In this document: piece by piece, positions 7,674 through 22,977 of the stretch | Position numbering within the stretch: the first letter of the stretch is position 1 | How the letters are laid out: each line of letters opens with the position of its first letter | DNA from: Oligoflexales bacterium | GTDB taxonomy: Bacteria > Bdellovibrionota_B > Oligoflexia > Oligoflexales > JALZUQ01 | Assembly (NCBI GenBank): GCA_023301565.1 | Contig: JALZUO010000066.1 | Span: forward strand, 1-64,000 | DNA length: 64,000 nucleotides | Direction of reading: 5' to 3' | Position numbers and translations under genes: made by a program | Notes under the pieces: generated by a model | Seen by the model: the letters and a program-made list of their open reading frames with translations, nothing else | Database searches by the model: none | What the model was told of the DNA's origin: nothing

Positions 7674-7758
7674 AAATACCTCAAAACAGCTATCCACCAT
7701 TATACACGGGTTGTATGATGGTGCCCTATGTAAGGTTTTTAGGGTTCGAGGGGTCGGA

Positions 7759-9936
7759 ATGTACAGTGTCAAGTTATTGAATGCCTTGGATTGGCCGTTG
7801 ATCAAAGATCAGCTTGCTTCGTTGTGCGTTGCAGATGCTTCGAAAAACCGCATTCAAAATAAGCCTATTTGGCTGAAACGCGAAGAGGTGGAGAAAGAGT
7901 GGCAGCGTGTGGACCAGCTTGTTCAGTTATCTGAAGCAGGCTTTGCTGTGCCTCTAGGTGACTTTTCTGAGGTTGAAGAAAAGCTGGATTTCGTCTCGCG
8001 AGGTGGCGTACTCGATGGCTCGCAACTGCTCGAGCTCAACTCTATTCTAACACTCAGTCAGTCGGTTTCACATTTTTCACAAGACTTTTCAGATCGCTAC
8101 TCCTATTTGAGTGAGGTTAAAAGTAGTTTGTACTTGTTGCCTCACCTCAAATTAAAAATCGAACACTCAATCGACCCCGAAGGAAACATTGCAGATAACG
8201 CAACCCCCGAGCTTTTAAAACTTCGCAAGGAGCTTCGAGGGTATACCAGCAAGATCGAGCAAGCGCTTCACAAATGGATGCAGAACCCTAACAACTCAAA
8301 GTATTTGCAAGACCAGTTTTTTACCATTCGTTCAGATCGTTACGTTGTTCCTCTGAAATTAGATGGAAACGGCAGAGTCGACGTCAGGGTGATTGATACA
8401 TCTGGCTCTGGCAATTCAATATTTGTAGAACCTTTTTCTATCAAAGAACTAAATGACTATTTTCTCCAGTTACGCCTAAAACAGCGTATTGAAGAGCTAA
8501 AAATATTACGTGATTTATCTGACTTGGTGCGCGACGAATCAGATTTTCTTCGATACAACTTTGACACCTTGCAGGCGCTAGATATTCGCTTGTCTAAGTC
8601 TGCGCTAGCCAGAAAAATGTCAGGTGTGGTTCCTAAGCTAGCGGCTGCAAACAAGCTGTTTTTAATTCAAGCCCATCATCCGTTGCTATACCTCCAAGAG
8701 CCTAAAGAAAGTGTTGGGCAAGATATTATACTAGAAGAAAAACAAAGGTGTTTGGTTGTTTCTGGACCGAATGCAGGTGGTAAGACTATTTCTTTAAAGA
8801 TCATAGGTCTAATGCAATTGATGGCTAGCTCAGGCCTTTTGCTTCCGATAGATGCAAAAAGTGAATTTTTCTTTTTTGATAACCTGCATGTAGAACTTGG
8901 GGATGCTCAAGACCTCGGGCAGAATCTATCGAGTTTTGCAGGCCACTTGAGGAATATTCAAAAGATAAACCGAGAGGCAAAGAAGGACAGCTTAATACTT
9001 CTCGACGAGATAGCAAGTGGTACCGATGCCGCAACCGGAGCCTCATTGGCTCAAGCTTTACTCGAGTCTTGGCTGGACGCTGGGGCAACGGTTATTGTCA
9101 CAACACACCTCGATAGGTTGAAAAACCTTGCTCTAGAAGATCCGCTATACAGAAACGCAAGTGTGGCTTTTGACTTTGAAAAAAACAAACCACTTTTCAA
9201 GCTTCACCTAGATGTTCCTGGTGCAAGCTTAGGTATTGAGTTGGCAGAGCGTCTACAGTTTGAACAGAGTATAATATCTCGAGCGAAAGACTTAAGGAAG
9301 TCTATCCCCTCTGGCGGAGCACAAGAGCTGCAGGACCAGTTGCGCGAAAAAATTCAGACCTTCGAAAACCAAAAAGACGAGCTGAAAGCCATGCAGAAAA
9401 AGCTCTCCGAAGAGCAAGCGCGCTGGGAACACGAAAAAAACATTTTGCTAGAAGCTAAAAAGACCACCCGTTCGAAGGTTCGAAGTGAGTACAGTCAAAA
9501 GTTTGAATTAGTCGAGCGCGATTTTTTTGTCTTAGTTAAAAGAGTAAAAGAACTTCTAAAAGACGCCAAGAAAAACCCTACTAAAGAATCACAGACAAAG
9601 CTTTCTGCACTGACAAGTGAGTTTCAAAAAAACTATAGCGGTGCAAAGGGTATGGTGAAGAATGAGCCAAGTATCAAACTCAAAGATGGGCCAGTAAGAG
9701 TGCTGGACTTGGCGGTTGGAAAAAAGATTTTTATTGTAAGTTTGCAAAAAGTAGGCGTGATTGCTGAAGAGATGGATGCAGATAAAAAGAAACATTATAC
9801 TAAGTTGGTGGAAGCTGGCGCGGAAATTGGCCTAACTAAAGAACTTGCGAGCTTTATGAAGCGTCAAAAGCTTGCAGTGGCTGTAGGTGGGCTGCAGTCA
9901 ATCATTCCCCTTAAGGACATAAAGAGCATAGGATAG
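7759..9936 (+). CDS. mutS2: MutS2 family ATPase lacking the Smr nuclease domain
   Basis: 725 residues from the ATG at 7759, with GAGGGG (7748-7753) upstream; an earlier in-frame ATG at 7711 has no such site. MutS2 proteins act on branched DNA or on collided ribosomes rather than in mismatch repair. The core and clamp region (about 1-320) is followed by the ATPase with Walker A GPNAGGKT (residues 336-343) and Walker B ILLDE (about 413-417), then a long charged coiled coil (about 515-640) and a KOW-like segment (VGKKIFIVSLQKVGVIAEEM). The protein ends shortly after, at KDIKSIG, without the Smr endonuclease domain of about 80 residues that finishes typical MutS2 of roughly 780 residues. No frameshifted Smr coding is obvious in the following 110 bases. 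Confidence 0.92.
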   Translation: MYSVKLLNALDWPLIKDQLASLCVADASKNRIQNKPIWLKREEVEKEWQRVDQLVQLSEAGFAVPLGDFSEVEEKLDFVSRGGVLDGSQLLELNSILTLSQSVSHFSQDFSDRYSYLSEVKSSLYLLPHLKLKIEHSIDPEGNIADNATPELLKLRKELRGYTSKIEQALHKWMQNPNNSKYLQDQFFTIRSDRYVVPLKLDGNGRVDVRVIDTSGSGNSIFVEPFSIKELNDYFLQLRLKQRIEELKILRDLSDLVRDESDFLRYNFDTLQALDIRLSKSALARKMSGVVPKLAAANKLFLIQAHHPLLYLQEPKESVGQDIILEEKQRCLVVSGPNAGGKTISLKIIGLMQLMASSGLLLPIDAKSEFFFFDNLHVELGDAQDLGQNLSSFAGHLRNIQKINREAKKDSLILLDEIASGTDAATGASLAQALLESWLDAGATVIVTTHLDRLKNLALEDPLYRNASVAFDFEKNKPLFKLHLDVPGASLGIELAERLQFEQSIISRAKDLRKSIPSGGAQELQDQLREKIQTFENQKDELKAMQKKLSEEQARWEHEKNILLEAKKTTRSKVRSEYSQKFELVERDFFVLVKRVKELLKDAKKNPTKESQTKLSALTSEFQKNYSGAKGMVKNEPSIKLKDGPVRVLDLAVGKKIFIVSLQKVGVIAEEMDADKKKHYTKLVEAGAEIGLTKELASFMKRQKLAVAVGGLQSIIPLKDIKSIG

Positions 9937-19849: not shown

Positions 19850-20032
19850 AAAAAGGCTAGCTCCTGTATTTGATGGCAGGTTAGCAGATGCATCAAGCTT
19901 CTACCTCCCTGAAATAAATAACCTTTGTCGGCGAGCAGCAGCTTGCCGCGACCCTTGCCTAGCTTGCATGCGTATTTTGGCGGTAAACAGCTCAAAATAC
20001 TGCTAAATTTTCGCCCGGACGCAACTGTCTAT

Positions 20033-20038
20033 AAGGGG
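20033..20038 (+). promoter_or_regulatory. Ribosome binding site deciding a TTG start
   Basis: AAGGGG lies six bases before the TTG at 20045, where homology to Fmt begins. The longer frame from 19925 also opens with TTG but has no comparable site, so translation is placed at 20045. Confidence 0.7.
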
Positions 20039-20044
20039 TTTGCA

Positions 20045-21676
20045 TTGTCACTAGAAAGGCCACGTGTTGTATTTTTAGGGTCTCCTGTATTTGTGCTCCC
20101 AGTTCTTCAAGGGCTGGTAGACTTGCACAAAAAAGGTGAACTTGAATTGGTAGGCGTTGTAAGCCAACCGGCAAAGCGCGGCAAACGGGGGAAAACAAAA
20201 CATGACCCTGCCGTAGCGGCCGCTGCGAAGCAGCTTCTTACAGAGCTACCAGACCTTGTTGTGTTGCAGCCAGAAAAAGCCAAGAGCCCCGATTTTTTAG
20301 ACGCGTTTAAGTCCCTTCTTCCAGACGTGGCAATCACGGCAGCTTACGGGCAAATTTTGTCTGATACGTTTTTAGCTATACCTGCCCGTGCGACCATCAA
20401 CGTGCACCCGTCGCTACTGCCGGCCTACCGCGGGGCAACCCCAGTTCAATCTGCACTGTTAGATGGGGTTTCAGTTTCTGGGGTTTCTATTTTGTTCACG
20501 GTCAAAGAGCTAGATGCAGGCAACCTCATCACACAAAAAAAAGTAGATATTGATGGGTGTAAAGGTGCCGCTCATTGGATGGGTGCCTTGTTTGAAGTAG
20601 GGGCAAAAATGCTACCAGATTCTTTGAAAAAGCTCCGGGACCCTGCCTTTGAGGGGGTAGATCAAGATGAAAACCCTCTAAATGTAGAAGCGTCGCACTG
20701 TTTTAAAATCCGCAAGTCACAAGGCAAGGTAGATTGGCATCGGCCAGCAGATGAGATTACAAACTTGGAAAGAGGTTTAGGGATTTGGCCTGGTTGTTTT
20801 TGTTTTATTTCGGCTTCTCTATTGCAAAGCCAGCAGCAGGAGCAGCAGGTAATTAAAGTAGCAAAAGTCGCCGTGCGTGGAATGACAAAGCTGACAGCTG
20901 CCCCAGACGATATCGACCCATCCGACATGCGGCCTGGCGATGCAGCTTATTCAAAAAAACTTTCAAAGTCTGTCGTTAAATGTGGTGAAGGAATTTTATC
21001 CATTGAATGGTTTAAGGTGGCCGGTTCAAAAGAGGTGAGCGCTAGAGATTTCTTTAACCGTTTTTCACAGCCTCGAATATCTTTTTTACCTTCACAGGTA
21101 CCAGTCGTAGTAGGCGTTTCGGGTACGGGCCGAAGTTTGCGTAATCTTTTGGCGCTTGAGTCAGAAAGCTTGTGGAGCATCAAAGGTGTTTTTTCGAACA
21201 AAGACAGCTGCAAAGCAATTGGCTTTGCGCGCAGGTCTGGCCTGCCTACTTGGACAGGTGATGTTGCAGGGGAATCAGAGAGTTTGCAAAAGTTTATCCT
21301 AGAGCAAACCCACCGACACTTTGGTGTGGTGTGCCTTGCTGGATTTTTGCAAAAGTTTCCGCCTCTAGATTTGGCAGGTGCCATGGCTATTAACATTCAC
21401 CCATCGTTGCTTCCTGAGTTTGGAGGGCAAGGGATGTATGGAATGCACGTGCATCAAGCTGTCTTTGACAGCAAGCAAGAACAAAGTGGAGCTACCGTAC
21501 ATTTCGTTAGTGATCAATATGACGAAGGAAAAATAATCGATCAGATAAAAGTAGATATTTCACAGTGTAGTAGTGCAGCTGATATTGCGGGTGCAGTGTT
21601 TGTAGCAGAAAAAAAACTTCTTCGTCAGGTGTTAGATGGTCTTGCCTGGAGAGAGAGCATGGAGATCAATTCTTAG
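20045..21676 (+). CDS. fmt-purN: Fusion of methionyl-tRNA formyltransferase and GAR formyltransferase (Fmt-PurN)
   Basis: 543 residues from a TTG start. Two formyltransferase modules lie in one frame. The N-terminal one (about 1-345) is Fmt: VVFLGSPVFVLPVL, AAYGQILSDTFLAIP, NVHPSLLPAYRGATPVQSAL and ELDAG, giving the catalytic triad Asn119, His121, Asp157, followed by a complete C-terminal tRNA-binding domain (ASHCFKIRKSQGKVDWHRPA..ERGLGIWPG). The second (about 352-540) is PurN: VVVGVSGTGRSLRNLLAL phosphate loop, LAGFLQKF, NIHPSLLPEF and VSDQYDEGKII, with Asn450, His452, Asp493. Both use 10-formyl-THF, one to formylate Met-tRNA, the other GAR in purine synthesis. Normal Fmt is about 310 residues and PurN about 190-210, so both are full-sized. 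No stop or frameshift separates them. ispA follows two bases later. Confidence 0.9.
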   Translation: MSLERPRVVFLGSPVFVLPVLQGLVDLHKKGELELVGVVSQPAKRGKRGKTKHDPAVAAAAKQLLTELPDLVVLQPEKAKSPDFLDAFKSLLPDVAITAAYGQILSDTFLAIPARATINVHPSLLPAYRGATPVQSALLDGVSVSGVSILFTVKELDAGNLITQKKVDIDGCKGAAHWMGALFEVGAKMLPDSLKKLRDPAFEGVDQDENPLNVEASHCFKIRKSQGKVDWHRPADEITNLERGLGIWPGCFCFISASLLQSQQQEQQVIKVAKVAVRGMTKLTAAPDDIDPSDMRPGDAAYSKKLSKSVVKCGEGILSIEWFKVAGSKEVSARDFFNRFSQPRISFLPSQVPVVVGVSGTGRSLRNLLALESESLWSIKGVFSNKDSCKAIGFARRSGLPTWTGDVAGESESLQKFILEQTHRHFGVVCLAGFLQKFPPLDLAGAMAINIHPSLLPEFGGQGMYGMHVHQAVFDSKQEQSGATVHFVSDQYDEGKIIDQIKVDISQCSSAADIAGAVFVAEKKLLRQVLDGLAWRESMEINS

Positions 21677-21678
21677 TT

Positions 21679-22701
21679 ATGACAGAAAACCAACAGAAAA
21701 ATTGCGAGCAGGCTTTGCAAGAGTTTTACACTCAAAAAAAGCTACAGTGGAACGACTCGTTTCAGGAAGATAGTGTGCCAGTGCTAGAAGCTGCCATAGG
21801 TCAGTTTCGCACCCAGTTTGAGGGTGCCTGGAAAGCTTTCTTAGAAACAAACTATCAACCAAAAGAAGATGAAAAAGATGGTCTAATTGCAGCGATGCGT
21901 TACGTGCTTTCAGGTAAAGGCAAGCGGGTTCGGTCGCTTTTAGTCCTTTTGGCTTTCGATGCTTTCTATACCGAGGCCAAAGACACCCCCGCTTACGCAG
22001 AAGCTTTTGGAAAGGCATGTAGGGTAGGTATAGGCATGGAAATGATCCATGCGTACTCGCTTGTCCATGATGACCTGCCTTGTATGGATGATGACGCCAT
22101 GCGCCGCGGGCAACCTTCTGCACATGTAGAGTTTGGGGAGGCCATAGCGGTTCTTACCGGAGACGGTCTGCTTACGGACGGGGTAAAGGTCTTGCTTGCG
22201 TCAGGTATTCCTAACACTGCAGCTGCAGTTCACTTTGTTTTGGATTCTATGGGTAGCCAAGGCATGGTGTTAGGGCAATCTTTGGATATGCAGTACGAGC
22301 GTAAAAGAGCAGAGTTCGACCCGGCAAAAGCAGAAGAAGTACACTTGCTTAAAACAGGGCGCTTGTTCTCGGCATGCTTGGTTGCGGGATATGTTGCTGC
22401 TGGTAAAGCCGACCCGGAAGCAGTACAGGCACTGGCTGCGCTCGGTCTCGACTGGGGGCTGATCTTCCAGATGGAAGATGACCTGCTTGACCTTGCTGAT
22501 GGATCTAAGCTCGGTAAAGAAGGCGGGGGCGACCTGAGCGCCGGAAAGCAGAGTTTTTGCCGTCAGCCCGAAAAAGCGGTAGAAAAGCTAGGGCCAGCAT
22601 GTGAGCGGATCACAGCTTGCATCGAAGGGCTTGGTTTGAAAAATACAGAGCTTAGTTATTACCTTACAGGTACTGTTTATAGAAAGTCGCAGGTACATTG
22701 A
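21679..22701 (+). CDS. ispA: Short-chain polyprenyl diphosphate synthase (farnesyl/geranylgeranyl type)
   Basis: 340 residues, slightly long for the family because of an N-terminal extension of about 45 residues. It joins isopentenyl diphosphate to allylic diphosphates for quinones, undecaprenyl phosphate and heme O. Motifs are GKGKRVRSLLVLL, the first Asp-rich motif with adjacent residues HDDLPCMDDDAMRRGQPS, GDGLLTDG, LKTGRLFSACLVAG and the second Asp-rich motif QMEDDLLD. The DDxxxxD form with two inserted residues is that of bacterial (type II) FPP synthases. It begins two bases after the fusion gene's stop. A heme O synthase that would use its farnesyl product is encoded at 35.1 kb. Confidence 0.93.
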   Translation: MTENQQKNCEQALQEFYTQKKLQWNDSFQEDSVPVLEAAIGQFRTQFEGAWKAFLETNYQPKEDEKDGLIAAMRYVLSGKGKRVRSLLVLLAFDAFYTEAKDTPAYAEAFGKACRVGIGMEMIHAYSLVHDDLPCMDDDAMRRGQPSAHVEFGEAIAVLTGDGLLTDGVKVLLASGIPNTAAAVHFVLDSMGSQGMVLGQSLDMQYERKRAEFDPAKAEEVHLLKTGRLFSACLVAGYVAAGKADPEAVQALAALGLDWGLIFQMEDDLLDLADGSKLGKEGGGDLSAGKQSFCRQPEKAVEKLGPACERITACIEGLGLKNTELSYYLTGTVYRKSQVH

Positions 22702-22704
22702 TAT

Positions 22705-22977
22705 ATGGATCAATTAGATACAGAAAATTATCTCGAAAAGGCCTTTGTGTTTCGTGATCGTCAGGCAGGGGTCAGCTCTATCTATGACGGTGAGCTTGAC
22801 CGGTTTGCATATAATGCTTACTGCCTAGAAAAGAAACTTCTTAAGGACCTGGTTAGCAAAGAGTACAGCTACCTAGACGACGCTCTTGCTTATGTAAATG
22901 CAGAGTTCGGCAGTTGGGACTTAGAGCTACTTGCAGAAGGCTCTAAAAAAGGCTGTGGAAGCTGCGCGGCAAAGTAA
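22705..22977 (+). CDS. Small conserved-looking protein ending in CGSCAAK
   Basis: 90 residues, starting three bases after ispA's stop, so part of the same operon. It is acidic and predicted helical with several aromatic residues (IYDGELDRFAYNAYCLEKK, SYLDDALAYVNAEFGSWDLELL). The last ten residues, KKGCGSCAAK, place a CxxC pair at the extreme C-terminus, suited to binding a metal or a redox role. No signal peptide or membrane segment. I do not recognise the family. Codon use resembles its neighbours and the frame is closed by stop codons on both sides, so I take it as real. Confidence 0.6.
   Translation: MDQLDTENYLEKAFVFRDRQAGVSSIYDGELDRFAYNAYCLEKKLLKDLVSKEYSYLDDALAYVNAEFGSWDLELLAEGSKKGCGSCAAK

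Follow-up and report, generated by a model that had tools for sequence, protein, structure and literature searches.

A probable fusion of methionyl-tRNA formyltransferase and GAR transformylase in one Oligoflexales genome

Does one gene encode both Met-tRNA(fMet) formyltransferase (Fmt) and GAR transformylase (PurN) in this bacterium, or were two ordinary genes joined by an error? The locus lies in the window, by which we mean the whole stretch of 64,000 nucleotides that was analyzed. The original prediction, which was made from the sequence alone, was that a single continuous frame includes both enzymes. This frame is indeed open from end to end: it contains no internal stops. The other two frames on the same strand contain 32 and 31 stops across the same interval, so the open frame is not due to chance. 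The frame and its ribosome site are:

20045 to 21676, + strand: fused Fmt-PurN frame, 543 codons, with a TTG start and a stop at 21674-21676
20034 to 20039, + strand: Shine-Dalgarno-like AAGGGG (duplex of -7.9 kcal/mol)

In the list of open reading frames, this frame begins farther upstream, with a TTG at 19925. We rejected this start in favor of the TTG at 20045: AAGGGG precedes the latter at a normal distance (about 5-6 nt), and the match to Fmt begins at residue 7. Thus, 20045 is the likely start, and the ribosome site favors the start that the original prediction had used.

Two stretches of the protein match PF00551 (Formyl_trans_N), with one stretch of PF02911 (Formyl_trans_C) between them, and all three are above Pfam's cut-offs. 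The parts of the protein are:

20063 to 20640, + strand: Fmt catalytic (Formyl_trans_N) domain, about residues 7-198 (PF00551 at residues 20-191; TIGR00460 from residue 7)
20705 to 21064, + strand: Fmt C-terminal (tRNA-binding) domain, residues 221-340 (PF02911, 57.4 bits)
21065 to 21103, + strand: junction or linker, residues 341-353 (FSQPRISFLPSQV), with no in-frame stop, at the site where relatives stop fmt and start purN
21104 to 21646, + strand: PurN (GAR transformylase) domain, residues 354-534 (the second PF00551 stretch, TIGR00639, and a PDB match to 1c3e/1c2t)

The N-terminal half has the features by which we recognize an Fmt: Formyl_trans_N and Formyl_trans_C domains (from Pfam) and an intact catalytic Asn-His-Asp triad (N119-H121-D157), which aligns with that of solved Fmt proteins. 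A basic loop around R48 lies where E. coli Fmt has its tRNA loop. Among solved proteins, this half is closest to Fmt (4iqf and 1fmt in PDB), and it retains 29 of the 31 columns in which conservation among relatives is 95% or more. NCBIfam's fmt model (TIGR00460) matches residues 7-342; the whole protein scores 218.7 bits with two stretches summed, and the Fmt part alone scores 187.4, as compared to a cut-off of 201.5. Overall, the fusion shares the catalytic domain, the triad, the basic tRNA loop, and the C-terminal domain with Fmt (TIGR00460; PDB 1FMT, 4IQF), but it bears a whole second formyltransferase at its C terminus. The original prediction had placed a full tRNA-binding domain between two triads, Asn119-His121-Asp157 and Asn450-His452-Asp493; Formyl_trans_C accounts for that domain, and alignments located both triads at exactly those residues.

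The C-terminal half has the features of a PurN: a Formyl_trans_N domain, an intact Asn-His-Asp triad (N450, H452, and D493) that aligns with E. coli PurN, and an SGxG phosphate loop (S359-G360-x-G362, within SGTGRSL). Its closest solved proteins are the GAR transformylases 1c3e and 1c2t in PDB, and it keeps 32 of the 35 columns with at least 95% conservation in relatives. NCBIfam's PurN model (TIGR00639) matches residues 354-534, but the scores (76.9 bits for the PurN half alone and 140.6 for the whole protein) are below the cut-off of 150.1, which is an annotation threshold and not a defining trait. Three standalone PurN proteins from the same operon in relatives also fall below this cut-off (102.4-125.8 bits; all three that were scored). 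As compared to PurN (TIGR00639; PDB 1CDE, 1C3E), the half has the same phosphate loop and triad and a match across the whole domain, but it does not have its own start codon, it is under NCBIfam's cut-off, and it has the GGxGMYG form of a loop, which is shared with other PurN of the order. Given its residues, the fold match, and the gene's position, we call it an orthologue of the order's PurN. The branch for the PurN half is the longest of 32, and the branch for the Fmt half is the second longest of 40; these long branches fit a divergent lineage and do not single out either half.

An AlphaFold model of the fusion was weak (mean pLDDT of 67.6, pTM of 0.43, and four alignment rows) and is of use only as confirmation of the two folds; the placement of the halves is not reliable. 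The model matches both Fmt and GAR transformylase in PDB. ArnA was also among the matches, both in the NCBIfam search and in the PDB search with the model. Separately, a 741-amino-acid frame elsewhere in the window (7711-9936, + strand) has MutS domain V, at residues 349-531, as its sole Pfam match.

Are there other copies of either enzyme? We searched the fusion's own assembly (2.78 Mb in 184 contigs), which is 92% complete and so may lack about 8% of the genome. A profile search for Formyl_trans_N did not find a separate fmt or purN in the 92%-complete assembly, and no purT was found over its cut-off: an ATP-grasp protein that matches below the cut-off, at 98 bits, is probably PurK. This agrees with the original prediction, which had proposed looking for separate copies of fmt and purN. 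Besides both halves of the fusion, the Formyl_trans_N search identified two other proteins, on contigs C31 and C8. We rejected these as a separate fmt or purN, as neither has a family match over the cut-off. The protein on C31 adjoins a PIG-L deacetylase-like ORF and an acetyltransferase-like ORF (neighbors were named by eye), and it is probably a sugar formyltransferase. The protein on C8 (L004, 1252-1998, in G000) is an unassigned formyltransferase of 249 amino acids and lies between diacylglycerol-kinase-like and alpha/beta-hydrolase-like ORFs, which were also named by eye.

The genome does seem to require both activities, because purM, purH, and def are present: purM and def are over their cut-offs, and purH has a whole-length match at 489.8 bits, slightly under its cut-off of 528. 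With the purine pathway present and no other GAR transformylase found in the 92%-complete genome, the fusion seems, from sequence comparisons, to be the only visible source of Fmt and PurN activity.

To see how fmt and purN are arranged in relatives, we examined 58 genomes of the phylum, all from one class and without a genus mate of the fusion genome. The fusion is unique to one genome among the 58. In the 30 relatives with both genes readable, fmt is followed by purN on the same strand, and the genes are adjacent but separate. Using the best-supported start for purN, the two genes overlap in 20 of the 30 relatives, and in 12 of them the overlap is exactly 4 nt (ATGA or TTGA); the widest gap is 116 nt. 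The survey of relatives that had been proposed along with the original prediction thus found the genes mostly side by side and fused in none. A scan of genome contigs with peptide patterns gave matches to purN only, the longest being about 0.7 kb, but the patterns were short, which makes this a weak test.

Two genes follow the fusion:

21679 to 22701, + strand: polyprenyl synthetase (ispA-like; PF00348), which begins 2 nt past the stop codon of the fusion
22705 to 22977, + strand: 90-amino-acid ORF that lacks a Pfam match and follows the ispA-like gene in the operon

The ispA-like gene likely shares an operon with the fusion. The order fmt-purN-ispA-orf90 is usual in relatives, and since ispA and the 90-amino-acid ORF are placed likewise downstream of purN in many of them, the operon that contains the fusion is a conserved one. 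The 90-amino-acid ORF is itself well conserved: 29 relatives in the order have it, with 44-68% identity, and it is near fmt/purN in each. Its product is a small protein that ends in CGSCAAK.

In three relatives (locus L114 in G010, L110 in G006, and L134 in G041), fmt and purN share a frame and are separated by just one or two stops and a short gap. We rejected in-frame readthrough from fmt into purN in these genomes, as the stops are ordinary and an ATG follows them. Loss of the intervening stop codons alone would fuse the two genes. In another genus (f8 g14: G015, at locus L136, and G023, G027, and G031), fmt is present but there are only weak matches to purN, both next to fmt and in the rest of the genome, unlike most of the order. 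These bacteria may rely on purT, may have a diverged purN, or may be without this step.

The arrangement in relatives also raises the concern that a base is missing from the assembly, which would have joined two normal overlapping genes. Because the genes so often overlap, their frames could be joined by one indel there; there is a run of six T's at 21082; and the junction is seen in just one fragmented genome, which has no genus mate. We therefore tried changing single bases between 21020 and the SGxG loop. Six of 784 such changes would yield a late stop for fmt and a start for purN, and all six are insertions, as expected if the assembly lacks a base. But this is less than 1% of the changes, and the signals that a separate purN would use seem to be gone. 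In all 31 relatives with a readable start, purN begins 5-18 codons before SGxG. In the fusion, all three frames lack ATG, GTG, and TTG from 21036 to 21136, and there is no Shine-Dalgarno sequence better than -3.8 kcal/mol before positions 21053-21105, where relatives start purN. An ATA at 21077 falls at about the position of the purN ATG of G001, the one family mate, although the alignment is short and this is only suggestive. Furthermore, the overlapping pairs of ORFs that we tested elsewhere in the window do not give clear broken genes: they belong to different families, apart from one related thioredoxin-like pair that resembles tandem genes. Thus, these pairs do not clearly point to frequent frameshift errors. 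An artifact at the junction is unlikely. We consider it less likely still that the frame gives two products, with an internal start adding some separate PurN to the fusion. The nearest in-frame candidate, a GTG at 21035, does have AGAGG beside it. However, it lies within the conserved end of Fmt, 28 codons before SGxG, which is outside the range in relatives, and AGAGG abuts the GTG and forms a duplex of only -3.3 kcal/mol.

Instead, this is very probably a genuine gene fusion that encodes one bifunctional Fmt-PurN polypeptide and that arose by the loss of the fmt stop and the purN start within a conserved operon. What we observed is an open frame with two complete catalytic halves, in an assembly with no other fmt, purN, or purT; in relatives, the genes are separate and often overlap, and any usual purN start has been lost from the fusion. 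As relatives' genes overlap and the window lacks the usual purN start or ribosome site, the loss of a stop/start overlap is the most likely origin. In the simplest history, a frame change in the overlap of fmt and purN, within the fmt-purN-ispA operon, would have removed the stop of fmt, and the unused start of purN would then have been lost. We infer that both halves are active and that the polypeptide remains uncut. A single mRNA frame would give one polypeptide, in which a linker of roughly a dozen residues connects the Met-tRNA(fMet) formyltransferase, at the N terminus, to the GAR transformylase, at the C terminus. The two halves most likely catalyze their usual reactions at separate 10-formyl-THF sites, as the unfused enzymes of relatives do, so that the fusion would supply both fMet-tRNA for the start of translation and formyl-GAR for purine synthesis. 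A stop/start overlap between neighboring genes tends to tie their translation together; a fused chain would go a step further and fix the two activities at 1:1.

Might the fusion couple the start of translation to purine synthesis via their shared donor, by channelling, competition for 10-formyl-THF, or feedback between the sites? Both halves do use 10-formyl-THF, and it has been suggested that excess Fmt in E. coli sequesters this donor when folate is short, under trimethoprim (PMC10197868). Nevertheless, neither structure nor sequence gave a sign that the sites are in contact, relatives manage without the fusion, and the loss of a stop codon in an overlapping pair requires no selection. Such coupling is improbable. 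We are just as doubtful of a sole-copy enzyme whose two sites influence each other via 10-formyl-THF, so that folate stress would hit both pathways by design. Thus, the domains, the triads, the lack of another copy, and the comparison to relatives bear out the original prediction of an Fmt-PurN fusion, but its idea that the fusion shares or balances 10-formyl-THF gained no support here. As relatives already express both enzymes from one operon, often via an overlapping stop and start, the fusion may be a neutral end point of this arrangement.

Two enzymes that use 10-formyl-THF, each from a different central pathway, are joined in the fusion, and across the fusion genome and its relatives this gene pair occurs in separate, overlapping, and fused forms. 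This provides a natural case for asking if fusion follows from a stop/start overlap and if a 1:1 ratio costs or helps the cell. It also illustrates why automated annotation could name just one half of such a protein.

Our search of open papers did not turn up a description of an Fmt-PurN fusion, which fits with the original prediction's statement that it is not known as a standard family. The fusion is a new domain combination of known enzymes, in one genome. Other multi-enzyme chains include similar parts. In animals, GART is a PurD-PurM-PurN fusion, with GAR transformylase as the C-terminal part. Both GART and Fmt-PurN end in GAR transformylase, but GART's partners are purine enzymes from the same pathway and not a tRNA enzyme. 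ArnA, a formyltransferase-decarboxylase, is a two-enzyme chain with an Fmt-like N-terminal part; its second part is a sugar-nucleotide dehydrogenase, instead of a formyltransferase. The closest precedent is the def-fmt fusion of Exiguobacterium, in which Fmt is likewise chained to another enzyme of formyl metabolism (PMC12690207). Exiguobacterium has a second deformylase, whereas we found no spare fmt or purN here, and both parts of def-fmt are functional, as shown by complementation in E. coli (PMC12690207). In Exiguobacterium, the partner of Fmt is peptide deformylase, from the same substrate pathway (PMC12690207); here, it is an enzyme of purine synthesis.
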